Below, piece after piece: positions 5,656-64,000 of a stretch of DNA of 64,000 nucleotides. The position numbers were made by a program, and so were the translations under genes. Below the pieces are notes generated by a model. That model was not told where the DNA came from and did no database searches. It worked only from the letters and a program-made list of their open reading frames with translations. The first letter of the stretch is position 1, and every line of letters starts with the position of its first letter. Location: NCBI RefSeq assembly GCF_018446385.1, contig NC_056000.1, positions 77,448,688-77,512,687 of the forward strand. Direction: 5' to 3'. This DNA is from Zingiber officinale. Taxonomy: Eukaryota > Streptophyta > Magnoliopsida > Zingiberales > Zingiberaceae.

Positions 5656-7320
5656 TGTTGGTGCAATATCCCCTGGGTTAAGGTTGATCATGTTGACTAA
5701 GCTTGAGTTAGCTCAAGTTTGAGTTTCGATGTTTAGGTTTCGATGTTTGACAATATATGGAGATTGCAGGAGCAATCGTCCGATTGGGAAGATTGTTAAT
5801 ACAATTCCCTTCTGGTCTAGGACTGATCACTTAGATGTGAAGAAAAGTCAAGTAGGTCAAAAGTTTGACTGGATACTTGACTGGGAAAGTCCTAACTGGA
5901 GGTTAGGCAGGTGAAAGACCTAATGAGTGAAGCTAGGTAGTTGGGAAATCCTGGTGAGTGAAGCCAGGTGAAAGACCTAGTGAGTGAAGCTAGGCAGGTG
6001 AAAGTCCCAGTGAGTGAAACTAGGTGCAAGTCCCGGTGAGTGAAGTCGGACAGTGGAAAAATCCTAGTATGTGAAGCTAGGTGAAAGTCCTGATGAGTGA
6101 AGTCGGGCAATGGGAAAGTCCTGGTGAGTGAGCCAGGCAGATGGAAAGTCCTGGTGAGTGAAGCCAGAAAGTCTTGGTGAGAGAAGCCAGAAAGTCCTGG
6201 TGAGTGAAGTCAGGCAGATGGAAAGTCCTAATGAGTGAAGCTAGGCAGATGCAAAGACTTGGTGAGTGAAATCAGACACGTGGAAATCCAGGTGGAGCAA
6301 GGTTGACCGGACACTTGGTGTTGGAAAGTCCAAGTGGGGCAAAGGGTTGACCGGACACTTGGTGAAGAAGTCTCAACAGGTCAAGGTTGACCGGATGCTG
6401 GGCATGAAGAAGTCCCAACAGGTCACGGTTGACCGGATGTTGGGTTTGGGAACCTTAGACTTGAGTTAAGCAAGTCAAATGAAGGTCAATCGATCAGCCA
6501 ATCGATTGAACTGCGATTCAATCGATCAACTGATCTATTGAAGGTGGACTGCAATTGAAGGCTGGTCAATCGATCGATCAATTAGGAAGCAAAATCACGA
6601 GCACAGAATACTACCCAATCGATCAGCCGATCGATTGGGCACTGCAGTCGATCGGTCGATCGATTGGAGGCTAGTTTTCTCGCGCGATCTCAAGAAAGCC
6701 TGAATTGATCGGTCGATCGATTCAGGCAGTTTCCAATTAGCACAGAAGCGCTCTGAATCGATTAGCCGATCGATTCAAGTCTCCCCAATCGATTGGTTAA
6801 TCGATTGGAATGTGACCGTTGCGAAGGAAGCGTCGAGTTTAAAGTTGTCTTCCTCGCAGCGACTAAAAATCACTCGAAGCTCTCCTCTCTCACGATTCTC
6901 ACAGGTTCTCGTCAGTTCTTGAAGCTTCTTGGAGCAAAGTGTTGCTGCACTTCCAAGGTCAAGAGGTGTTCCACACAAGAAGAAGAAATTAGTTAGGGTT
7001 TCATTTGTGTAAAATCTTGTAAGATTTTCTTTGTATTTGCTTCTTCTTTTCTTCTTGTTGTATTGAAAGATTATACAAGGTTTCTCCGCCTTCGGTAGTT
7101 ACCGAGAAGGAGTGTTTTTCTTAGTGGAGAGTGCGTCGTGTGTGGATCCTTGGATTAGTCACCTTTTCTTGAGGTGGATACCAAGTTAAATCTACATGTT
7201 AGCGTTGTGAGTCTTGTTTCGAGTTCTTTCCACTACGTATCAACAACACCGAAGCAAGCAAACGAAGTACGACGAGCTATTCATCCCCTCCCTCCCTCTA
7301 GCTACAAATCGACCCTAACA
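5656..7320 (+). mobile_element. LTR fossil (solo LTR) of the hairpin-repeat copia family
   Basis: The unit starts TGTTGGTGCAATAT and ends CCCTAACA, and aligns along its length with the LTR at 24046-25583 and the start of the LTR at 29628. It is about 1.67 kb, inserted in intron 2 of the pseudogene. It carries a tandem array (5890-6260) of about 27-30-bp units with the core TGAGTGAAG, then an array of AATCGATN palindromic pairs (6485-6805), then an R/U5-like part with the typical TTCTCCGCCTTCGGTAG segment. No internal domain is attached. It differs clearly from the other copies, so it is older than the element at 24-30 kb. No clean 5-bp target duplication was found. Confidence 0.75.
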
Positions 7321-8465: not shown

Positions 8466-11400
8466 CAGGGCCGGACCTGAGCACAGTCCCAAGAGTCAAC
8501 TGTCTCAGGGCCCATCATCTTAGGGGGCCCATTAGTTGGAGCACAATAGAGTGTTTTTATAATAATCATGCTACACTTTTCAGGACTTAATTATAATTTT
8601 AAAAACTTTATGTAAAAGTGTAAAATAATAAGTTAACCCTATTTCCCCTTTTTCTTCCATAGGTTCTCGATTTTTCATTTCCCCTGCCGCCAGCAACTAA
8701 CGCCGTCGGTCTGCACTGCTGCTGCACGCTTTACGTCGTTCGTGAGTCTTCCAAGGTGAAGGTCCTCGTCTTCCCTAAAAGATTAGTATTTTTTTTCCCT
8801 CTGCACTTTGGTGCAGGGAGACTTCTATCGCTCTCTTGACGTTTTATTTGTTTTGATGGTTGCTTTCGTCTTTTGTTTTGCAGCTATGGAAGAGGGTTTT
8901 CACGGAAACTTCTGTGGAACTTAAGCTTCTCAGGGAGAAGTGGAAGCTATTGCTAGCCGGACTCATATTTCAGGTATTTTCTTTTTTGTTGAAATCTCAA
9001 GTATTATTTTTTAGCATTTATTCTATTTTTTTCAGTGTATTCCGGTCTTGGATTGTGATACCAGAATTCACTTTTTCTTTTTCATTTTATATTTTTCTCA
9101 ATCATTTTTCTGATAGGGCAGTCTTCTTGAGTTGTGTAATCTGCTTTTTTGATTTATCGATCCTAATCAGTAATAAGATATTAGTTTTTATCTCTTGATG
9201 CAAAAACATTCATAGTTGCAGTAGTAAGAATTGGAATCTTATTTATATCTTGTATATTTGCTTACAGTTAACTAAGAGGAGCATAATATAGGTAAAAATA
9301 TCAAATTGGAAATTCTTCCCTTGAGGTGGGTTTTTCTTGTAGTTAATATAATTTCTTAGAAAATTTTTGACAACATAAGACTATAAGAGTTTTAATATTT
9401 AGATAATTCTTACATATTTTTTAGGTAAAATATAATTAATGGCTTCCAATCCCAAACATCTATCTGGCTATCAGAAAAGAAAGAGAAAGCAAAAGGAAGA
9501 AGCATTAATTCAAAGTCAAGCAGGAGATATTGATAAATATTTTTCTAGTAACAAGAGAATGATGGTAGAAGAAACAATTGATAATCCAACGAATGTGGAA
9601 CAAGAGAATGAAAGCAACATTCATGTTGAAGAACTTGATCAATCTTTGGATATAGAATTGATTCAAACCCTCAATGTAAATGAATCGAATGATGAAGATG
9701 ATGTGGATGTGGTTAATAATCAATCTGAAAATCAAGAGACTTTGTTTCCACTTAATGTTGATGATCCAGCAAATTGGGATAAGATTGATCAAAATATTCG
9801 GGATTTTTTAGTTGAAAGGGGTTCAAGTAGAGTTGATGGTGTTTTGTTTCCTAAGGACAATAATGGTAGGCATTTTGATGCATCACATTACAAGAGATTA
9901 CTACCTAATGGCGAAAAAAAAGATAGAAAGTGGCTTGTGTATTCAATTTCTTCCGACAAAGTATTTTGCTTCTGTTGCAAATTATTCAAAACTCAAAGTA
10001 CCATGTACAAAATTGGTCAATTGGCTAATGAAGGGTACAAAGATTGGCATAACTTGAGTCGTAGTCTGAAAAATCATGAAGCAAGTAAGGAACATATTGA
10101 TTGTATGATTAATTGGATTGAATTGGAGAAAAGGTTGGAAAAAAATAAGACAATTGATGATAGTATACAAGTAGAAATCAACAAAGAGAAGGAGCATTGG
10201 AGACAACTATTAAAGAGGATAATTGCTATTGTGCATAGATTGGCAAAAAACAACTTGGCATTTCGAGGAGATTATGAGAAAATTTATGCTGAAAACAATG
10301 GCAATTTTTTGCAAATGATTGAAATGATAGCAGAGTTTGATCCAATAATGAAAGAACACATTCGTCGGATACAATCAAGTGAAACTCATTATACATATCT
10401 TGGTCCTAAAATCCAAAATGAGTTGATACAGATGTTGGCACATGAAGTGAAAAAATCAATCATTGCAAAAGTTAAAAAGGCCAAATATTATGCAGTTATA
10501 CTAGATTGTACTCCAGATGCAGGTCATGAGGAACAAATGTCCCTTGTAATACGTTGTGTGGATGATTCAGCAACCTCTGCAGTGATAGAAGAATATTGGG
10601 TTGAATTTTTGAAGGTAGATGATACATCAGGACTTGGACTTTTTACTGAGTTAAAAACTGTGTTGAAAAATCTTGGACTTAATCTTGATGATATAAGAGG
10701 CCAAGGATATGACAACGGATCAAATATGAAAGGAAAACATAATGGAGTGCAGAGAAGATTATTAGATATTAACCCTAGAGCTTTCTATACTCCTTGTGGA
10801 TGTCACAGCCTAAATTTGGCATTATGTGATATTGCGAATTGTTGTCCTCAAGCTATGTCATTTTTTGGAGTAATACAACGGATATATAAATTGTTCTCAT
10901 CTTCTACCAAGCGATGGAAAATTTTCAAACATCACATGGAAGGTTTAACACTTAAGCCATTGTCACAAACCCGTTGGGAAAGTCACGTTGAAAGTGTGAG
11001 ACCAATAAAAGAACAAATTTCAAAGATAAGAGATGCTTTACTTGACTTAGCAGACATGGGTGATGATCCAACAGGAAAGAGTGAGGCTGAGTCTTTAGCA
11101 ACACATGATCTTGAAAATTTTGAATTCTTGGTTGGTTTGGTAATTTGGTATAAGTTGTTGCATTCAGTAAATATTGTAAGCAAGATTCTCCAAGCTGAAG
11201 ATGTAGATATTGATGTTGCTATTAAACATATAAAGGGTCTTATGTTGAATTTTGAAGAATATAGAGAACATGGATTTGAAAAGGCTGTTAATGAAGCTAA
11301 ACAAATGGCAAATGAATTGGGAATTGAAGCTTCATTCAAGGAAAAACGTATTATTAGAAGAAAAAAATAGTTTGATGAAACTATTACAAATGAGGTAACA

Positions 11401-21969: not shown

Positions 21970-24045
21970 GATTCTAGGTCACACTAGGTCATTTGGTTAG
22001 AGGAAGCATGATGGTCACACTAGGTCATTTGGGCTTAGAGCCTACACCGATTGGCACTAGTGCTAGTGGGAGATTGTTAGCTAGAGCCCTAGAGCCAATC
22101 ATTTGATGATTGTATTTTGGACTTGTTGTATCATATTCTATATAAATAAAGGCATTTGGTTTTTGGTTATTATACTTACTTGTATTGGTGCCAAATAAAC
22201 TAAGTATAATAACGTCCTTGAGTAGACAGTTCTCACCTATATCAATCGGTTAGTTGAACCGATAGTGAGATGATATAGGGAACACTACTCTTAATTATTC
22301 CTAGTCGAGTATTAACATTCAGGGACAATGTTAATGCAATAAGACTAGCATGTAGGTCAACTCGATGACTTGATCTCACAAGTCATGGATATAGAGATAT
22401 CAAGTTGACACATGGGTATACATTGGAGAATGTATACTGAATGACCCGCCATGAGAAAGTATCATGGATCGTTATATGAGTGTCATATACTTTCTCATGT
22501 GACTATTAGTATGACTACTAGTCCTTAGACCTGAAGTCACCATGGTTCCCTACATAAGGAGTTATGTACTTTGGTTTCGTTAAACGTCACCCGTAACTGG
22601 GTGGACTATAAAGGCGATTACTGGGTATGTAACAAATTATGCGGAGGGATGTGAGTGACGTAGATGGGATCTATCCCTCCTATATGACGGGAGAGACATC
22701 GGTATTCTTGATAGAGTGAGACCACGAAGTGCATGGCCATGCCCAAATGAGTCAATATAAGATATTGAGCTCATTTGATTTAGTGAGTCTACTTGGAGTT
22801 CAAGATTTAGATTGATCAGAGGATGACACGGTCTATGCCTCACATTGATCAATCTAGATGTCTAGGATAGAAGGACACTTGTCATATATTGTGAGGAGTC
22901 ACAATTAGTAGTCACAAGGTGATGTTGGATCTCAACATTCTTGTAACTTGGGTAGTAATGATGTATTGCTAGATACCGCTCATTACTTATGTTTCTAAAT
23001 GAGTTTAGGGGCATTGCCAACGTTACAAGAACCTATTGGGTCACACACAAAGAACAAGTGGATGGAGATTAGGTTCATATGATGAACCAAGAGGATTAGA
23101 TTCATTTGATGAATCAAATTGGATTAAGAGTAATCCTAATTGGGCTAATTGAGTTGGACTCAAGTTGATTCATGTGTTCAATGAGTCTAATTTAGATTAT
23201 GACTCATTGAATCAATTTAATTAAATGAATTAGATTCATTATATTAAATTGGCTTGAATTAAATGGTTGGATTAGATCAACCATGAGAGAGATTAAGTCA
23301 AGTTTGACTTGACTTGAGAGGAAGATGAAGAGTCAAGTTTGACTTGACTTTATGCCACCTCATTGGTGAGTTGGCATTAAATGGACCAATGATGATGCTC
23401 CACATCATCATGGTTACTTAAGTGAAGTGCCACCTCATGGGAGTTACCAAGAGTTGTGACTCTTGGTATCCCATGGAGGTTACAAACCACTTAATTAGAT
23501 GAAAAGAGTTTTATTTTGCAAGTGTAACTCTCATTCAAGTGATCTTCCTCCTCCTAAGCTCTCTTCTTGCTCCTTCTCTTCTCTTGGTCGTGGGTTTCAA
23601 GCAAGGGAGAAGAAAGGTGAGTGAGTCTAATCCAAGAAGAAAGGTTAGTGAAAGTCACATAGAGTTTTTAGAGGAGTGTGTCCTCTTCTTTTTCCTTTCT
23701 TCATCTTCCAATCCTATCCGAGAGCATCAAGAAGTGCTAGCACACTTGTGGTGTTCTCTTCTCCATCCTTGAGTGTTAGAGAACACTTCTTGTTCGTGTG
23801 GATATCACTAGAGAGTTGTCTACGTTGACAACTTCGAGATCCGGCGTACCTTGGACGAGCGGGATACGCGAAGGGCACGCTTCAAAGGTATAAAATGTTT
23901 TTCCTTTGTAGATCTACTGTAGATCATAGTTTGAAAGTCGTACTCGTATTTTCGAAAGTTTTTCTTCGCACAGATCCAATGGCTAAGGGGTTTCGGGGTT
24001 TCCGCGACGTGAAAAAGCGGTTTTCGCGGCCCGAAAAACCCAACA
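21970..24045 (+). mobile_element. LTR retrotransposon fossil: 3' end of internal region plus 3' LTR
   Basis: A polypurine-type stretch (AGTGGGAGA) directly precedes an LTR that starts TGTTAGCTAGAGCC at 22075 and ends CCCAACA at 24045, about 1.97 kb. Only about 100 bp of internal sequence remain on the left. It is broken: no gag or pol is present. The right end directly abuts the LTR of the next element, so the two were nested or joined. Confidence 0.7.
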
Positions 24046-27000
24046 CAATATTCCCTAGGTCAAGGTTGACCTGGTTGACTAAGCTTGAGTTGGCTCAAGC
24101 TTGGGTCTTGATGTTTGAGTTTCGATGTTTGACAATACATTGAGACAATACATGGAGACTGACAGGTTATGGAGATTGCAGGTGCAATCGTCCGTGTGGG
24201 AAGTCCTGGTGAGTGAAGCCAGGCAAATGAAAATCCTAGTGAGTGAAGCTAGGTGAAAGTCCCGATGAGTGAAGCCGGGCAGTTGAAAAGTCCTGGTGAG
24301 TAAAGCCAGGCAGGTAGAAGTCCTGGTGAGTGAAGCCAGGCAAGTGAAAGTCCTGGTGAGTGAATTCGGGCAATGGAAAGACCTGATGAGTGAAGCCAGG
24401 CACGAGGAAATCCAGATGGGTCAAGGGTGACCAAACATCTGGTAGAAGGAAGTCCAAGTGAGTCATGGAGGACCGGACACTTGGCACGAGATGATAAGTC
24501 CAAGTGGGTCAAGGTTTACTGAACACTTGGCACAAGGAGAAAGTCTAGATGAGTCAAAAGTTGACCGAACTCTTAGCGATCGTAAGTCCAATAGGGAGTT
24601 GGCATGGAACTAGGAAGTTCGAACGTAGTGAGCTTCCGAAGGCCATAACTTTTGACTCGGATATCGGAATGAGGTGATCTCGGATGCGAAACGAAGATAA
24701 TTTCAAACTCTACACAGATTTCTGCTTCCCAATCGATTGGCCGATCGATTGGGGGGTTCAATCGATTGGGTGACGCGATTTTGTGCAGAAATGTTGTGAA
24801 TCGATTGGGTAATCGATTGAAACTTCCCCAATCGATCCACTAATCGATTGGGAGAGTTTCTGAGCGAACAGTAAGCTTCTGAATCGATCGATTGATCTAT
24901 TGAAACCTCCAATCGATCGACCGATCGATTGGAGCACTGGAAATCACTCGAGAAGCCTTGAATCGATCGAGCAATCGATTCAGGACAATTCCAGAAAGCA
25001 CAGAGGCACTCTCGATCGATCGGTCGATCGATCCAAAGCCTCCTCAATCGATTGGGAGCAATCCAATCGATTGGGATTCGATCGTTGGCGCGGATAAAGC
25101 CATTGGTGAGCGATTTCTTCGGCACTTCTTCCTCTCTTCTCCACAGGCGATCACAGCACAGCTCCACAGCGATCTTTTCTTCCTCACCGCCAGTTCTTGA
25201 AGGTTCTTGGAGGCTCATTCAAGTCAAGAGGCAAGTTGCAACAAGAAGAAGAAGAAGCTAGGGTTTTCATTGTAATCTTGTAAGATTCATTTGTATTTTG
25301 CTTCTTTCTTCTCATTGTTGTATTGTGAGGTTGTAAGGCTTCTCCGCCTTCGGTAGTTACCGAGAAGGAGTGTTTTTATAGTGGAGGGTGCGTGAGTGTG
25401 TGGATCCTTGGACTAGTCACCTCTTCTTGAGGTGGATACCAAGTAAATCCCTAGAGTTAGCATTGTGTGTTTGTTTTCTTGTATTTCCGCTGCACATCAT
25501 CGCAAGAGGCAAGCAACGACGAGCATGAGATCGCGTCGAGCTATTCACCCCCCCCCCCCTCTAGCTACATTTCAGTCCCAACAAGTGGTATCAGAGCGAG
25601 GCCGCTCTTCACCGGAATCATCGCCGGAATGGGCAAAAAGCTAGAGGGTGAAGAAGTTGGAGAAAATTCTACAAGTCGAAGACTTCATCAAAAGGCTCAA
25701 CTTCAAAATGGAATTCCAAGATGGACTTGGATTCGACACAAGGGTGCCTCCACCATATGTATCTACCAACTTCGATTCTTGGAAATTAAGGATCGAGAAT
25801 TTTCTTATGATGGAGATAGAGCAATGGTTTGCTCTCATGGAAGACTTCGAAGCTCCAAGAAATTCAAAGGGCAAGATCCTCAAGAGGAGCAAGTGGAGCC
25901 AAGAACAAATCCAAAGGTGCGAGGCGAATGAAAAGGTAACCAAATTATTGGTTAATTTATTGTCAAGCACAATTCTATGCAAAATTGGAGAATTTGAAGA
26001 CGCAAAGGAATTGTGGAGAAAATTGGCCAAGCTTCATGAAGAACCCTCCACTATACCAAATCAAGACAAATCCAAAGAGGGCAACTCATTGAAGCAAAAC
26101 CAAGAGCAAGAGGACTCCGAAGTTGAGAGATGCTCAACTTCCGAAGAAGAGGGTCAAGAAGTTTCATCTTCAAAGGAATACAATGAAAAGGGCAAAGAGG
26201 GAGCATACTCTTTGTTCCATGTACAAGAGGAAGATGAAGAAGCCTCCACCTCTAGGATTGAGGGGGAGAGACCTTTGTTGACATCGGATCAAGAAGAAGG
26301 AAAAGCTTCTACATCCTGGTCAAATGGAGAAGAAGACAATGCATCCTCCAAAAATCAAGAAACATCAAATGGAGGAGCAAGTGTCATCCCTACAAGCAAA
26401 GGTAAAAATGTTTCAATTATTAATAATAAAAATTATATCATATGTTTTGAATGTAGGGAACATGGGCACTACAAAACTAAGTGCCCTAACTTGGTAAAGA
26501 AGAAGGGCCAAGTGACACTAAAGGGCAAGGAGAAGCCTAAGGAGACCACCCTCACTACAAAGAAGAGTAAGGAGCACATTGTGTGCTTCTCGTGCCATCA
26601 AAAAGGACATTACTGGAGTCAATGTCCTAAGGGGAAGAAAGTGGTCAAAGCTAAAGGAGGAAGCATGGATCAAGGGGGAGCTTCAAAGGTAAAACGCAAG
26701 GTATCATTTATTGAGCCTACCTCTTTAAATTATGGTAAAAAGCATCCTAGTTCTAATTTTTATCATTTTAATGCTATTTACCACAAAAATAAGAAGCATG
26801 ATAGCATTAAGGAAAAACATGTAGCTTTTCATGCTAAAACCACTCAACCTAAGGTTAGGAAGGTAGATAACCAACTAGGAAATAATTCTTAGGGTTTTAA
26901 GCATATGCCTAAGAAAAGGAAAAAATCAAGATTTTAGTGAAAAATCTAAGGTTGAGGAACTATGGAAGGAAAATCAAGTCTTGAGGTCAAGACTTGATAA

Positions 27001-30000
27001 AATGGAAAGGATCCTTAGGAAAATCACAAATGAAACACAAGGGTCCAAAAATCATAACCTAGGTCTAGGAGTACAAAAGTCATCCAATGGTCGTAAGGGG
27101 TTGGGATACAAACCTAAAACCAAGAAGGATGCAATTTCTTACCATAGGATTCCATATACTTATGGAACTAACCTTAGGACTAGTGGTCAAGTCAAAAATA
27201 CAAGGGAAGTTATCCTTAGAAGTATTTTTGCAACAACAAACGTGACTAAGACTTCTAAGAAGTCTAAGAAAGTCACTAGGAAGGTCACAAGGGAAGAAAT
27301 CCATAGGGTTGATCTAGAAAAAGTGATCAAGGCTTCTAAGAAGCCTAACAAGGCCACTAGAAAGGTATCTAGGGAAGTTTTTCCTAGTGAGTACCTAGAG
27401 CATCCAAGGAGCACTAATAGATTTTGGATTCCTAGGAGCATTTTCTCTACCCCTTAGATGGGTTAGAGAGTGTCAACTCAAATTGAAAGGGTAGTTAACC
27501 TAATCATGATAAAGTTGACACTCAGAGAACATTTTTAAGGTTATTATTAACCTTTGAAAATGAAGTGGATTATTCATTTACTCTTAAAAGGAGTAAAATG
27601 TGCCAAAAATTTGAGGAATTTGATCAAATCTAAATTGGCACAATTTAGGAAAATCATAAGAACTACCAAGTTAGAATTTTGGTATGCTCTTAAGAAATTA
27701 AAGGCAATCCGGGCCTTAAGGTTAAAATGATTACTCTTGTGGTAAGAGTAAATTGTGCCAAAGATTTGAGGAATATGCAAAATCTTAACTGGCACAAATT
27801 AATCAAGAGTTAAAGAAATATCAAGTTGGGTTTTGACATTTTCTTGGGAAATATTGAGCAATCTAGGGTTTAAATTTAAGATTAGCTAAGGTTTAAGGAT
27901 ACTTAGATAGTTAATCTAGGTATTCTATTTATACTAATTTTTCATGCTTTGTTTGTTCATAATATGCCATGACATCATGTTTTGCATTCATGTTTTATTA
28001 TGAAAAATACAAAAATATCATATCATGTCATGTGATACATACATCATGTAGTTATAGGAAATTATCTTTTGAAAATTATTTATCTTTAATGTATGCCATA
28101 ACATCATCATGCATCATGTTTAATTCCTTTCAAATTAAGGACAAATGACATCCATTAACAAGTAATATCCTTGGTGGATGTTCATAATCTCAAAATGCCT
28201 AGATAGATATGCATGACTCCTAGATTAGGGCAAAACCAAAGTTTACATCTCACTAAAGAACTATAAGGTGACTTGTATGTGGTTTCGTACACATTAAATA
28301 CAAGTGAGATGATAGGATGATGAACCAAACTCAAGATGTTGATTTAGTACATTCTTTTGAGTTTTTAATTTCATCAAAACACATAGTTATGTGTTTTCCA
28401 ATCATTGGGAAAGCTAATGTACAAGTCATGTACATTGAGCCTAAAGAATATGGTTGGATATTGGTTTTGAAAATGGTTTTAAAATGCTTTTGGAAAACTT
28501 TGGTGAAGGCTATCTTTTGATAGTAATCATCATTGAATAGTTAGGCACAAACTTGGAAGAAAACACTAAAGTTTTTAAAAGTTTCCAAGTTTGTATCAAT
28601 ATTTGAAAATATGAAGTATTTTCTTAGAAAACTATTTTTCCATGATAATATATACCCTAAATAATGTCTACAATGATTTTCATAATTTTTGGAATTTTGT
28701 TGAATTTTCTAGGGGTTTCTGATGTTGACTGAAATGAAATTTCAACAACTTTAGACCTTCAATGGATCACCCGATTGATTGAAGGGTCTTAATTGATCAG
28801 ATCGATTTAGAGTGAGCTTCTCGCAAACAGAAGCTCACTGGATCGATCCACCTATCGATCCACACTAGCTGAATCGATCAGTGGATCGATTCAAGCAGGT
28901 TCAATAGATTGGGACCCAACTCCAATCTATTGGGGATGCTGATTTTGGCTGGGAAAGCTTATTGTCAGCATTTTTGGTCTATGTAACCATTCTTAACCTC
29001 TCAAAAACATTTTTATACCTTTAGGGGGAGTTTTCATGATGAAAACAAAGATGAATTGATTAAGGAAGATTAAGTAGAGGTTTAGGTTGAGGTTTGACTT
29101 CATTATTGACTTTTTGAACCTCAAAACTTCTAAATTTGGGTTTCCTAAAGATTTAGGGATTTCAAGTCATTGTTGGTGCAATGACAGAAGTTACGCGCAT
29201 GTCTTTAGGGGGAGTTACTCTTTAAGGACATGAAAATCTATTTTTCATACACCTTGGAAGGTGGTTAACCTTCTTTAGTGAAAATGCTCAAAGTTGGGCA
29301 TTTGAATACAATGAGGAGTGGATATCTTCATTGTTTAGTTGTACGTGCTCAAGGGTGAGCGTTGGAGATAATGAAGGGTATGAGACCTTCATTTTCGTGT
29401 TGAACACAACTAGTGAAGTTGTGAACAACGGTGAGTGACTGTTTAGGGGGAGAGTTTTTGATATGTGCCAATAGGGGGAGAATGTGTGGTTAAGTTAGGT
29501 CTTCATTACCTAAAGAGGAAGTTTGTGCCCTCTAGGAAAGGGGAAGAATGAAGGGAACCCTCATTCATATATTGGCACGGGATTAGCCTAACTTAAAGGT
29601 ATTGTCAAACATCAAAAAGGGGGAGATTGTTGGTGCAATATTCCCTAGGTCAAGGTTGACCTGGTTGACTAAGCTTGAGTTAGCTCAAACTTGGGTCTTG
29701 ATATTTGGGTTTCAATGTTTGACAATACATTGAGACAATACATGGAGACTGATAGGTCATGGAGATTGCAGGTGCAATCGTCCATGTGGGAAGTCCTGGT
29801 GAGTGAAGTCAGGCAGATGAAAATCCTAGTGAGTGAAGCTAGGTGAAAGTCCCGATGAGTGAAGCCGGGTAGTTGAAAAGTCCTGGTGAGTGAAGCCAGG
29901 TAGGTAGAAGTCCTGGTGAGTGAAGCCAGACAAGTGAAAGTCTCGGTGAGTGAATTCGGGCAATGGAAAGACCTGGTGAGTGAAGCCAGGCACGAGGAAA

Positions 30001-30612
30001 TCCAGATGGGTCAAGGGTGACCGAACATCTGGTAGAAGGAAGTCCAAGTGAGTCATGGAGGACCGGACACTTGGCACGAGATGATAAGTCTAAGTGGGTC
30101 AAGATTGACTGAACACTTGGCACAAGGAGAAAGTCTAGATGAGTCAAAAGTTGATCGAACTCTTAGCGATCGTAAGTCCAATAGGGAGTTGGCATGGAAC
30201 TAGGAAGTTTGAACGTAGTGAGCTTCCGAAGGCCATAACTTTTGACTCGGATATCGGAATGAGTTGATCTCGGATGCGAAACGAAGCTAATTTCAAGCTC
30301 TACACAGATTTCTGCTTCCCAATCGATTGGCCGATCGATTGGAGGGTTCAATCGATTGGTTAATCGATTGGGCGACGTGATTTTTTATAGAAATGATGTG
30401 AATCGATTGGGTAATCAATTGAAACTTCTTCAATCGATCCACTGATCGATTGAGAGAGTTTCTGAGCGAACAGTAAGCTTTTGAATTGATCGGTTGATCG
30501 ATTGAAGCCTCCTATCGATCGACCGATCGATTGGAGCGCTGGAAATCGCTCGAGAAGCCTTGAATCGATCGAGCAATCGATTCAGGGCAATTCCAGAAAG
30601 CACAGAGGCAAT
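24046..30612 (+). mobile_element. Non-autonomous copia-type LTR retrotransposon with gag only
   Basis: Parts: 5' LTR 24046-25583 (ends CCCAACA); primer-binding site TGGTATCAGAGC from 25586 (Met-tRNA type); a gag-like coding region at about 25640-27460 with a domain of the UBN2/gag type and two CCHC zinc knuckles (CFECREHGHYKTKCP and CFSCHQKGHYWSQCP); about 2.1 kb of non-coding internal DNA; a polypurine tract GGGGGAGA just before 29628; and the first kilobase of the 3' LTR. No protease, integrase, reverse transcriptase or RNase H is visible, so it depended on other elements and is broken now. Over the first 160 bp of the two LTRs I count about eight differences, all transitions, which points to an insertion a few million years old at most. 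Confidence 0.82.
24205..24560 (+). repeat. Hairpin-unit tandem array in the LTR
   Basis: Units of 27-30 bp with the core TGAGTGAAG are flanked by short complementary arms that differ between units but stay paired: CCTGG/CCAGG (24205-24223), CCTAG/CTAGG (24235-24253), CCCGA/CCGGG (24261-24279). Longer-span units follow, with CCAGATG/CATCTGG and CCAAGTG/CACTTGG arms. The same array occurs at 5890-6460 and 29790-30130, and in reverse orientation at 31430-31800. Confidence 0.8.
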
Positions 30613-31990
30613 TCTACGGAGAAAACGCTCCGCCCAGGCTTTTAACAATGCTCCCAATCGATCCAATTCATCCCCAATTGATTGCCACGTTAGCACCGCT
30701 TCATCATAGCCGTCCATCGCTCGTTTTCTGTGCAATGGTCAAATCCTAATCGATCGATCGATCGATTGGAAATATCTGAATCGATCGGTGGATCGATTCA
30801 AAAGGGTTCTGTGTTCTTGCACGAGAACTCCCCTGCCCAATCGATCGACCAATCGATTGGGCAGCTCCCAATCGATCGCTCGATCGATTGGAAAAGTTTC
30901 TGTGCTTGTGATTTCACATCCCAATCGATCGATCGATCGATTGGGCCTTCCCACAATCGCAGCACACACCCAATCGATTGACTGATCGATTGGACCTTGG
31001 TTCAATCGATCGTCCGATCGATTGACCAGCCTGGACTTGACTTAAACTCAAGTCCAAAGCCTCCAACCCAACTCTCGGTCAACCATGACATGTTGGGTCT
31101 CCGTGCCTAGTATTTGGCCACACCCGACCAACCTTGAACTAGCCTTCTAGCCTTCTCCATCAGCCTTGCGCCCCTCGGATATCTCTCATCCTTCACGCCT
31201 TGCCTTCAGGAGCTTCTTTTGGCCTCATCCTAGTTGTCGGATTATACAAACACACTCGACTAACCTCAAACTAGCCTTCTAGCCTCCTCCATCAGCTTTG
31301 CGTCCCTCGGATATCTCTCCATCCTTCACGCCTTGCCTTCAAGAGCTTCCTTCGGTCTCATCCTAGTTATCGAGTTCTCCTTGCCAAGTCACACTAGGAC
31401 TTACCTTACCAAGACCACATGCTTGGACTTACAACCTGTGCCAAGATCACACTTGGACTTTCCAATTGCCTGGCTCCTCACCAGGACTTTCTCACTTGCT
31501 AAGATCACACTTGGACTTTCCACCCTTTGCCAAGATCACACTTGGACTTTCCAATTGCCTGACTTCTCACTAGGACTTTCTCCTTTGCTAAGATCACACT
31601 TGGACTTTCCAATTTGCCTAACCTCCAGTTAGGACTTCCACTACTGCCTAAAATCCAGTTAGGACTTCCACCACTGCCTAAACTCCAGTTAGGACTTCCA
31701 CCACTACCTAAACTCCAGTTAGGACTTCACATACGCCTAACCTCTAGTTAGGACTTCCATACACCTAATCTCTAGATAGGACTTTCTCAGTCAAGTCTCC
31801 TGTCAACCTTGACCTACTTGACTTGTATTCTCATCAACCTGGTCACCCTTTGACCATCTCCATAAGTGGACGATTGCCCTAGAAATCTCCATATATTGTC
31901 AAACATCAAAACTCAAACCCCGACTCAAGCTTGACTCAACTCAAGCTTAGTCAAACTGGTCAACCTTGACTAAGGGAAATTGCCCCAACA
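29628..31990. mobile_element. Two LTRs of the same family joined tail to tail
   Basis: The plus-orientation LTR beginning TGTTGGTGCAATATTC at 29628 matches the 5' LTR until about 30612. A second, more diverged LTR of the same type runs on the minus strand: its start is at 31990 (read inward as TGTTGGGGCAATTTCC), its hairpin array is at about 31800-31430, and its AATCGAT palindrome array is at about 31020-30730. Both lack their 3' parts at the junction near 30612-30640. No internal region is attached to the minus copy. Confidence 0.75.
30650..31025. repeat. Cluster of perfect or near-perfect AATCGAT palindromes
   Basis: At least seven inverted pairs occur, for example GAATCGAT...ATCGATTC (30778-30799), CCCAATCGAT...ATCGATTGGG (30836-30861) and a fully palindromic unit at 30920-30945. 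They are separated by 15-40 bp of unrelated sequence. Similar clusters lie at 24725-25080, 30315-30600 and 6485-6805. Confidence 0.85.
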
Positions 31991-36513: not shown

Positions 36514-38072
36514 GAGGATGGTGCAGGTTTTGACCAACACTTGGTGTTCGTCGGGAGGATTCGCGGCGGACGGGACGCTGGTGCAGGCGGGAGGCTTCCG
36601 CGACGGCGGCGTCGCGGTCCGGTACCTCGAAACCTGCCCTACTTGTGACTGGGTCGAGTACCCAACCGCTCTCTCCGCTCCCAGATGGTAGGGAACAGTT
36701 TGCCTTTTTTTTTATTATTAAAAAATATTTCATTTAATTTTTTTCAAATTATATATATATATATATGTAAGACAGTTATTGATGAGGTGCAACTGGTTGA
36801 TTTCCGAGTTCCGACGAAAATTAATACTATAATTTATTATTAGATTTTACGAATTTAATCCGCGCATGCAGGTACGCGACCCAACAAATCCTACCCGACG
36901 GCAGTTTCATCGTGGTGGGCGGCCGCCGGCAATTCAGCTACGAGTTCATCCCCGCCCGCGGTCAGTCCAACCCTTCCAACTACAAACTCCGCTTCCTCGT
37001 CGCCACCACCGACGACGTCGAGAACAACCTCTATCCGTTTCTCCACCTCTCCTCCGACGGCAACCTCTTCATCTTCGCCAACAACCGCTCCATCCTCTTC
37101 GACCCCCGCTCCAACGCCATCCTCCGCGAGTTCCCTCCTCTCCCCGGCGGCTCCCGCAACTACCCGGCCTCGGCCGCTTCCGCCCTCCTCCCCATCCGCC
37201 TCCGTGGCTCCTCCGCCGCCGTCCAAGCAGAGGTCATCATCTGCGGCGGAGCCGCCCACAACGCCGCCTCCGTCGCAGCCAACCGCCAGATCTTCCTCCC
37301 TGCCATCGCCACCTGCAGCCGGCTGGTCATCACCAGGCCCAACGCCGCGTGGCACACGGAGAGCATGCCCACGTCGCGCGTCATGGGGGACCTCCTCATC
37401 CTCCCAACCGCCGACCTCCTCCTTCTCAACGGCGCCAAGAGCGGCACCTCCGGATGGGGCTGGGGCGAGGAGCCCAACCTCGAGCCGCTCATCTACCGTC
37501 CGGCAGTCAAGCGAACCCCTCAACGCAGCCGGTTCCAGCCACTGACGCCGTCGACGATCTCCAGGATGTACCATTCGACCAGCGCGGTGCTTCCGGACGC
37601 CACCGTGCTCGTCGCCGGAAGCAACCCGAACCCGTCCTACAACTACACGGCCAAGTACCCGACGGAGTTCCGGGTGGAACGGTTCGAGCCGCCGTACCTC
37701 GACCCTGCGCTGGCGGTCCACAGGCCGAAGATTTCGGAGGGATCTACTCCGGCGTCGGTGAGTTACCAGCAGGGATTCTCGGTACAGTTCGAGTTGCAGG
37801 GGGGTGAGTCGGGTGTGGAGGCGGCGGACGTGAAGGTGACGATGTACGCGCAGCCGTTCACGACGCATGGGTACTCGATGGGGCAAAGGCTGCTCGTGCT
37901 GTGGGTGGCGGAATTGACGTCGGCTGGAGAGGGGAGGTGGCAGGTGTCGGTCACGGCGCCTTCCTCGGGGGCCGTGGCGCCGCCGGGGTACTACCTGACG
38001 TTCGTGGTGTATCGTGGGGTGCCCAGTGAGGGTGTGTGGATTCAAGTTGGTGGGGCCGCCGGTGGTAATTGA
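36016..38072 (+). CDS. Secreted glyoxal/galactose oxidase-like protein (aldehyde oxidase GLOX type)
   Basis: Three exons (36016-36447, 36527-36687, 36872-38072) give 597 aa. A signal peptide (IFFFLLSLSTNLAAP, about 1-25) points to the cell wall or apoplast. The glyoxal oxidase N-terminal beta-propeller domain and the C-terminal DUF1929 (Ig-like) domain cover the rest. The copper-radical site of the galactose oxidase family is complete: Cys151 (NTWCSSG) and Tyr199 (PRWYATQ) for the thioether cofactor, Tyr431-His432 (SRMYHST) and His530 (TTHGYS) as ligands. Family members oxidise aldehydes or alcohols with release of H2O2; plant ones are linked to pollen, wall and defence roles, but the substrate here cannot be read from sequence. 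Intron 1 carries a (TAA)n run from 36469. Exon 3 is extremely GC-rich, so long antisense and off-frame reading frames there are shadows. Confidence 0.93.
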
Positions 38073-63033: not shown

Positions 63034-64000
63034 TGTTGGTGCAATTTACACTAACAGTCTAACTTAGATTTTGATGAATGACAAGTGAGTTAAGTTAGGT
63101 GTTATCGTGATCTAATACATTTACCGAGTGTGCAGGGTTGACTAACTTGATGGGTCAAGAGAACCTGACACGAGGCAGGAAGTCCAATCGGGATATACGA
63201 TTCCTGATTAGTGAAGTCCAGATATGGGATTCTAGCAGGAGGTCGGGATGTTCGATTCTCGATGGGTGGAAGTCCGAATGTACGATTCCAGTATGAAGAC
63301 CTGGTAGGTCAGATTAGATGTCAAGGAGGCAACTCGACACTTAGTAAGTGAAGGTAAGTCACGGGAGGAAAGTGACTAAGTGAGGACGCGTCCTGGTTGA
63401 GAGGACAGTAGGTGTTAACCAATTTAGGTTCATTTCGGAAACCTAAATTGAGACCCTGACTAGATCCTAGTCTGGATGATAGGGTATAAGTCCTAAATTA
63501 AATCATATTATTATTGTGCTAACCTTGTTTTGCAAGTAGATATTATTGTGTTGGACTAACCTACCTTGTAGGAAAAAAGGAGCAAAAAGGTCTCGGGTGA
63601 ACAGTACCTGAGGCGCCTTCAAGCCATTGGAAGGCACCTTCAGTACTATTCATGGAAGGTGCCTTCAGTGCTATGGAAGGCATCTTCCATCAAATAAAAT
63701 TTGACTTCATCAACGATAAGGAGCAACATTTTTGGGATCGACTTTTGTCTATAGAAGGTGCCTTTAGGGCTATTAAAGGTGCCTTCCACACTCCTTAAAA
63801 GAGCATTTCGACCAAGTCATTGAGAACATCTCTTCTACGAGCTTCTACACGTTCATTTAAAGTTCTGACTACTTTGGCTTCCTGCTATTGCTCTATTATA
63901 ACATTGCTGCGTCCGTCTATTGCTGAGGAGCCACCCGACACCAAGCCTAAGCCAATAATCTTCTAAAGTGTTGGGTAACGAACTTAAATTTTGTATTTGC
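63034..64000 (+). mobile_element. LTR of another retrotransposon, cut by the window end
   Basis: It begins TGTTGGTGCAATTTACAC and shares its first several hundred bases with the reverse LTR ending at 34304. It contains AAGTCC-spaced short repeats (63180-63310) and GAAGGTGCCTTC / GAAGGCACCTTC inverted pairs (63640-63790). The 3' end is beyond the window, so whether an internal region follows is unknown. Confidence 0.65.

Follow-up and report, generated by a model that had tools for sequence, protein, structure and literature searches.

The 64,000-nucleotide stretch of Zingiber officinale DNA analyzed here (NC_056000.1, positions 77,448,688 to 77,512,687; hereafter, the window) contains a Sirevirus-like Copia element whose long terminal repeats (LTRs) carry tandem arrays of small palindromic units, with stems that differ from unit to unit and arms that change together. 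The 5' LTR (B) occupies 24046..25583 of the plus strand and is 94% identical, over 975 columns, to 29636-30610 within the truncated 3' LTR (C; 29628..30610, plus strand), so that B and C are the two LTRs of one element. Because they are sister LTRs, the array of C (array 1 at 29791-30173) is not independent of the one that begins at 24201 in B. The first bases of B appear to be missing, since its homology to the 3' LTR begins at 24046. Directly before it, at 24026-24046, stands a CCCAACA that seems to be the terminus of another such LTR.

Two LTRs of other families share the same unit frame. LTR A lies at 5656..7320 on the plus strand, with array 1 at 5887-6450. LTR D, of a third family, is represented by its 5' part at 31402..31990 on the minus strand, and its array at 31402-31784 consists of CCTAA/TTAGG, CCAAG/CTTGG, and CCTGG/CCAGG hairpins. 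A 122-bp segment within LTR D (31119-31372) is duplicated, with 89% identity between the copies. The original prediction had counted three further LTR copies with the pattern in the window; the families of A and D bear this out, whereas the third, at 29790-30130, is the sister LTR of B.

Sirevirus hallmarks and the anatomy of the arrays

Sirevirus features are cited here and below from excerpts of PMC2829016. The 5' LTR ends in CA and is followed on the plus strand by the intervening bases AGTGG and the primer binding site TATCAGAGC (25584..25597); the junction at 25582-25597 fits the Sirevirus pattern CA / A(T or G)TGG / TATCAGAGC (PMC2829016). A plus-strand tract of 12 C at 25548..25559, 24 bp from the LTR end, occupies the position of the Sirevirus poly-C "integrase signal," which lies on average 21 bp from the 3' end of the LTR (PMC2829016). 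Upstream of the 3' LTR we found five AGGGGGAG octamers on the plus strand (at 29023, 29207, 29445, 29473, and 29618, spanning 29023..29625), the average for the Sirevirus linker being four (PMC2829016); two further ones lie inside a gag-like frame, at 26261 and 26673. The terminal octamer is followed by the AT/TG attachment site (AGGGGGAG-AT-TGTTGG at 29618-29633). Four bases before this octamer, on the plus strand, ends the 14-bp left arm (29600..29613) of the inverted repeat that flanks the terminal polypurine tract. Its partners are exact in the 5' LTR (24124-24137) and have one mismatch in the 3' LTR (29714-29727); the partner lies 86 bp inside the LTR, against a Sirevirus average of 28 (PMC2829016). 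Array 1 begins 163 bp inside the LTR and comprises 11 units, after which array 2 follows, while Sirevirus palindromic repeats are placed in the upper half of the LTR, 200-400 bp inside, in 8 or more copies (PMC2829016). The CGG-CCG core is limited to units of the CCCGG/CCGGG type. No TATA box (TATAA or TATA(A/T)(A/T)) was found on the plus strand of LTRs B and A, and Tnd-1 and ATCOPIA43 likewise are without one (PMC2829016).

The gag-like open frame, at 25645..26892 on the plus strand, contains zinc knuckles. It matched the Pfam profile PF00098 just above the cut-off (21.4 versus 20.8) and PF14223 (Retrotran_gag_2) below it (20 versus 27). A Pfam scan of four other frames returned no domain, and there was no pol domain among the scanned frames. 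The element spans ~6.6 kb (24046-30610), which is below the full Sirevirus length of ~8.5-14 kb; given this span and the truncated 3' LTR, we regard it as a deleted copy. Judged from its sequence, the element is one with most of the non-coding hallmarks of a Sirevirus (Ty1/Copia).

In B, array 1 opens with seven short hairpin units (24201..24407, plus strand), each built of AAGT, a 5-bp arm, a TGAGTGAAG-like loop, a second 5-bp arm, and a spacer; the loop mostly has 6-9 bases. They are followed by four long units (24408..24583, plus strand) with outer 7-bp stems, namely CCAGATG/CATCTGG, CCAAGTG/CACTTGG twice, and the poorly paired CTAGATG/CTCTTAG. Long units come after the short ones in A, B, and C alike; their 7-bp arms enclose about 17 bases, and the inner sequence of some forms a GGTCAA..TTGACC-like stem. 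Array 2 (24720..25080, plus strand) consists of tandem ATCGAT palindromes with covarying flanks. The stem of a given slot stays constant across copies, and stems differ among slots and families: pair 3 is T-A, C-G, or A-T, while pairs 4 and 5 are each G-C or A-T.

Arms were assigned by their position and not by their complementarity. By position, the predicted arm pairs CCTGG/CCAGG, CCTAG/CTAGG, and CCCGA/CCGGG were all found at 24201-24407 and CCTAA/TTAGG at 5891-5907, and the long-unit arms CCAGATG/CATCTGG and CCAAGTG/CACTTGG at 24408-24540. Other parts of the description had to be amended. Units in the window measure 23-31 bp (short) or about 42-46 bp (long), a wider range than the 27-30 bp first given. 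A nearly constant loop was confirmed in A, B, and C, but the loops of D (31402-31784, minus strand) vary, including CT(A/G)GAGN-like, TGTGAT, TGAGGAG, and others. Given this variation, recognition of a constant loop by a protein, as proposed, is not consistent with the data.

A separate possibility is that the arrays are dyad-symmetric sites for a dimeric DNA-binding protein that recognizes one fixed sequence. Inverted pairs of the form GGTCAA..TTGACC or GTGACC, which we take to be W-box-like, occur in some long units (24419, 30009, and 6379) and near the LTR start (24058 and 29648), and repeats of Sireviruses have been compared to the sites of stress-related factors (PMC2829016). Such a protein may suit the inner stem. 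Both arm sequence and spacing vary between the units of one LTR, however, and a fixed site is therefore an improbable account of the covarying outer arms. In each of the four LTR stretches, either strand carries 4 to 7 TTGACY motifs, while less than one would be expected at uniform base composition.

Complementarity of the arms and descent of the units

The four arrays of the window list 56 units, and we counted the 40 in which the loop places the arms; the other 16 comprise 12 long units, two without a clear stem (24584 and 30174), and two units of D (31430 and 31402). Watson-Crick pairs filled 173 of 200 arm cells, as compared to 136.1 +/- 4.9 when the arms were re-dealt among units, and none of 5000 shuffles reached 173. 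The excess persisted in the 29 units with a TGAGTGAAG-type loop (121/145 versus 106.3 +/- 3.4; 0/5000) and in the 22 that remained when the sister LTR C was left out (91/110 versus 80.7 +/- 3.0; 8/5000). The arms thus change together, as the original prediction had stated.

The same was found across the genome, where units were collected by means of their shared frame. From 72 sequences (71 loci, including some of the window LTRs, plus the D array of the window), 738 short units had 3006 of 3690 cells paired, versus 2590.8 +/- 18.0 after re-dealing (0/1000). The 321 long units, spurious matches included, reached 1582/2247 versus 1314.6 +/- 17.1 (0/2000). Thirty-six unit types occurred in at least five loci, and 22 of them were perfectly paired by majority. 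When only the 21 distinct outer arm pairs of these types were considered, 82 of 105 cells were paired, while re-dealing averaged 59.5 and never exceeded 74 (0/20000 deals). Stems read from the column majority of aligned copies were paired in 65 of 65 positions in D (13 slots, three stem sequences, 23 copies) and in 54 of 56 in B (10 slots, five stem sequences, 39 copies). Array 2 behaved similarly. Its flanks at 427 sites included CCA/TGG (135), TCA/TGA (54), TGA/TCA (51), and TGG/CCA (14), with changes that include C-G to G-C swaps, and its 258 distinct units had 584 of 774 cells paired versus 434.6 +/- 11.7 (0/2000).

Genome-wide, the frame AAGTCCNNNTGAGTGAAGNNNGGCA had 118,800 exact matches (59,260 + 59,540), while the same pattern read backwards had none. 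A pattern search of viral contigs gave 0 matches. A 5' pyrimidine with a 3' purine at pair 4 was present in only 2 of the 118,800 units, and thus the paired changes at this position are transitions; G·T at pair 4 was found in 4,678 units. A-T at pair 3 was found in 920 units. All of the 100 listed were CCAAG/CTTGG, often in pairs 5.0-5.5 kb apart, and these units are therefore probably one amplified subfamily. This seemingly amplified CCAAG/CTTGG subfamily, in the TGAGTGAAG frame, was noted from position 1820251 of contig G000:C1 onward.

Units are copies of copies, and the counts above are strongly pseudo-replicated. Hence, for the array 1 units, we used a tree-aware null in the style of R-scape, in which a FastTree phylogeny was built on unique units, the parsimony changes were re-dealt to random columns, and column pairs were scored by the G statistic with average-product correction. 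With all unit classes (326 of 572 units unique, 378 column pairs, 20 nulls), pair 3 ranked first with an E of 0.0, pair 4 third (E 0.5), and pair 5 fifth (E 0.8). In five resamples (306 of 582 units unique, 300 pairs, 40 nulls each), pair 3 had an E of 0.0 every time, pair 4 ranged from 1.1 to 2.6 and pair 5 from 2.0 to 3.6, and no pair outside the stem fell below 0.05. No null value was as high as that of pair 3 in the single run or in any of the resamples. Among the TGAGTGAAG units alone (680, of which 350 unique), the two top-ranking of 351 column pairs were stem pairs 4 and 3, in that order. Overall, pair 3 was the sole significant stem pair, with pairs 4 and 5 among the top six. Because only pair 3 of the five is significant under this null, the paired states reflect a few old events that were copied many times. 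The covariation is real, and it rests on a limited number of old events.

These results bear directly on the simplest alternative, in which there is no constraint at all and a few chance double changes, mostly C-to-T in one arm and G-to-A in the other, were multiplied by the amplification of LTRs and units. The units are strongly related and the AAG/CTT stems look like one subfamily; E is weak for pairs 4 and 5, the changes at pair 4 are nearly all transitions, and inserted copies decay in a neutral-like manner (see below). Pair 3, however, exceeds every tree-aware null value, the restoration of pairing on internal branches (see below) exceeds that of shifted controls, and array 2, which lies in the same LTR but differs in sequence, also has complementary flanks, C-G to G-C swaps included. 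Nor does this account readily give three stems in D and five in B that are paired in nearly all majority positions. We consider it unlikely.

Inserted and replicating copies, and the DNA or RNA level

LTR partners were judged by their spacing on the same contig and strand, which yielded six clean pairs (L001/L003, L002/L005, L006/L007, L010/L011, L020/L023, and L031/L034). Since insertion, their arms have accumulated 41 one-sided differences (17 G·T, 18 A·C, and 6 other) and no two-sided ones. A seventh pair, L013/L038, was excluded for its 38 gap columns; it has 10 one-sided and 4 two-sided differences. Departures from the column majority were likewise mostly one-sided, with 89 versus 10 two-sided (5 of them paired) in D and, when two slots of mixed register were left out, 141 versus 9 (8 paired) in B. 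The two-sided counts are above the expectation under independence (2.1 in D and 3.6 in B); this excess may represent replaced units or subfamily states. Fourteen apparent double changes at pair 3 of slot 24205 were rejected, as they arise from units that the alignment places out of register. Regressing mismatch on divergence was uninformative (r of 0.35, -0.07, and 0.06).

On internal branches of the unit trees, the ratio of regain to loss of Watson-Crick pairing was 3.6 with the tree of all columns and 12.6 with the tree built without the arm columns, while four shifted controls per tree gave 0.4-1.1. The pattern is consistent with pairing that is maintained as the lineage replicates and decays once a copy has been inserted.

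The main rival to maintenance by selection is template switching, or quasi-palindrome correction, by which one arm is copied onto the other in the course of reverse transcription or replication, so that palindromes would be made and repaired without selection for a function. It would produce perfect stems of any sequence, and in both arrays of one LTR, and would need no preference for G·T over A·C; the process has been described for RNA genes (excerpts of PMC8794818). The study resembles our case in its compensatory changes and its perfect stems in small hairpins, and differs in that it deals with RNA genes and DNA replication, the consulted text making no reference to retrotransposition or reverse transcription. 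The absence of two-sided changes in the six LTR pairs gives no sign of such copying in inserted elements. Moreover, double changes from one Watson-Crick pair to another in a single step were rare on the tree with arms (1.6 internal and 4 tip), although the noisy tree without arms has 35 internal and 84 tip, and 5' pyrimidine/3' purine units are nearly absent at pair 4. We regard this explanation as doubtful, if still a serious one.

Mismatched intermediates provide a means of distinguishing RNA from DNA, as G·U would be expected as a tolerated intermediate in folded RNA. In the 738 short units, summed over the five pairs, we counted 278 G·T and 292 A·C. The balance differed between positions, with 21 versus 117 at pair 1 and 131 versus 49 at pair 5, which adjoins the loop. 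By unit length, G·T stood against A·C at 50 versus 27 in 26-bp units and 211 versus 248 in 30/31-bp units; further sets gave 75 versus 92 in one count, 26 versus 40 in D, and 83 versus 81 in array 2. Losses on internal branches were 37.6 to G·T and 55 to A·C. Since the two kinds of intermediate are about equal in sum, selection on RNA folding, which the original prediction had suggested, is not favored.

Predicted folding gave a divided picture. For the plus strand, predicted energies were -4.6 to -9.7 kcal/mol for perfect single units and about -14.5 for long units. Across a sample of 250 short units, hairpins averaged -3.22 on the plus strand and -2.10 on the minus strand, versus -2.42 with re-dealt arms, which is a modest gain. 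Array 1 as a whole had RNA fold z scores of -2.63 (plus) and -2.14 (minus) and a z score of -3.51 as DNA, with cross-pairing between units; it thus folds no better than the neighboring 3' part of the LTR (-2.81). The corresponding RNA value for array 2 (24715-25090) was -9.09. Hairpins in the transcript, with selection on the folded RNA, would overlap with a symmetry kept in the replicating lineage. The advantage of the plus strand, the strong fold of array 2, and the surplus of G·T over A·C at pair 5 and among 26-bp units speak for them, as does the link between maize Sirevirus regions of this kind and small RNAs (excerpts of PMC10760457 and PMC5311732). The lack of an overall G·U preference, its reversal at pair 1, and the ordinary, cross-paired fold of array 1 count against them, and we find RNA hairpins quite unlikely as the explanation.

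Interpretation, known systems, and the rest of the window

Our best reading is that the replicating lineage maintains pairing or dyad symmetry; the main rival to this reading is template-switch repair. More specifically, we give somewhat better than even credence to the view that array 1 and array 2 together make up the region of palindromic repeated motifs in a Sirevirus (Ty1/Copia) LTR, and that their symmetry is kept as the element replicates. One-sided transitions (to A·C or G·T) would be tolerated for a while in the replicating element, until they either are lost or are compensated by a second change. Symmetry, as a dyad or hairpin at the DNA level and possibly in RNA too, would in this way be kept while the stem sequence drifts. 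A further step, which we put forward only tentatively, is that Sirevirus LTRs might be selected for symmetry itself: the stem sequence would be largely free and complementarity would count, at the DNA level, in single-stranded complementary DNA or in extruded DNA, for example, in replication or transcription, and A·C and G·T intermediates would be tolerated to about the same degree.

Several observations weigh against the maintenance of symmetry. Fourteen of the 36 unit types are mismatched (one of them a spurious match). The type CTTGG/CCAAG, counted among the 22 perfect ones, is the majority of eight members of which just one pairs, and we rejected it as evidence. Stem sites of inserted copies diverge much as other sites do (0.059 versus 0.050 in D; 0.046 versus 0.050 in B, without the two slots of mixed register). 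On tip branches the stem ratio of regain to loss was 1.5 and 2.4, with controls at 0.4-2.1. Under the tree-aware null, the TGAGTGAAG units alone reached just E 2.75 for pair 4 and 3.0 for pair 3; with all classes, pairs 4 and 5 fail it (E 0.5-2.6 and 0.8-3.6) and pairs 1 and 2 are without covariation. In addition, the unit trees are parsimony-based and draw on a few dozen columns at most, and the tree without arms is noisy.

The claim that compensation exceeds plain drift accordingly survives in part: pairing above chance, majority stems, and the faster regain of pairs uphold it, while pseudo-replication and the significance of pair 3 alone restrict it. Similarly, the covariation test proposed for copies from the genome was positive for pair 3, but not for pairs 4 and 5, and showed nothing at pairs 1 and 2. 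The statement that a few units pair poorly has to be corrected, since mismatches are frequent: perfect pairing among fetched copies was found in 183 of 538 units of 30/31 bp and 78 of 146 of 26 bp.

The arrays resemble the repeated motifs of Sireviruses in that the initial part of the LTR holds palindromes in high copy, accompanied by AGGGGGAG clusters, AT/TG, CA/AGTGG with TATCAGAGC, and poly-C (PMC2829016), and the core of array 2 (CAATCGATTG) resembles the Tnd-1 motif ACAATCGATTGT (Table 3 of PMC2829016). The motifs in those excerpts are one per element, with 66.5-100% identity among copies. Here, in contrast, one LTR has two arrays, the stems of array 1 are diverse within a common AAGTCC..GGCA frame, and only some units have a CGG-CCG core. 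The cis-region of maize Sirevirus LTRs is similar in its clustered palindromes, predicted secondary structure, and high sequence variability (excerpts of PMC5311732 and PMC10760457); covariation of the arms is not mentioned in the consulted text of PMC10760457. In the open literature searched, no title or abstract opening dealt with covariation in LTR palindromes, which is no claim of absence in print, and a text search for the motif in papers gave no match. On sequence grounds, we take the structure to be a known one, the LTR palindromes of Sireviruses; what is new is that a single LTR carries units with differing stems, and the variant has two arrays per LTR.

That such palindromes exist is known, and the question this case addresses is whether selection acts on their sequence, on their symmetry, or not at all. 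Many different stems stand in one frame in one genome, and inserted copies serve as a built-in neutral control, so that simple counts can separate drift, template-switch repair, and selection acting on pairing. Comparing A·C with G·T intermediates offers a cheap test of RNA versus DNA that can be repeated in maize or any other Sirevirus-rich genome. If symmetry itself were selected, the exact copies of the frame in this one genome would document, in nature, how DNA hairpins evolve by compensatory change.

Elsewhere in the window, 63034-64000 holds one more LTR start (TGTTGGTGCAAT), whose small units (AATCG..CGATT) are different, and repeats of GAAGG(T/C)(G/A)CCTTC at 63610-63800 seem to belong to another family with its own palindromic motif. 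A long open frame on the plus strand (9436-11370) matched DUF4371 (PF14291) and is, we presume, perhaps that of a hAT-like transposon. Another plus-strand frame (36825-38072) matched the N terminus of glyoxal oxidase and a galactose-oxidase-like early set domain.

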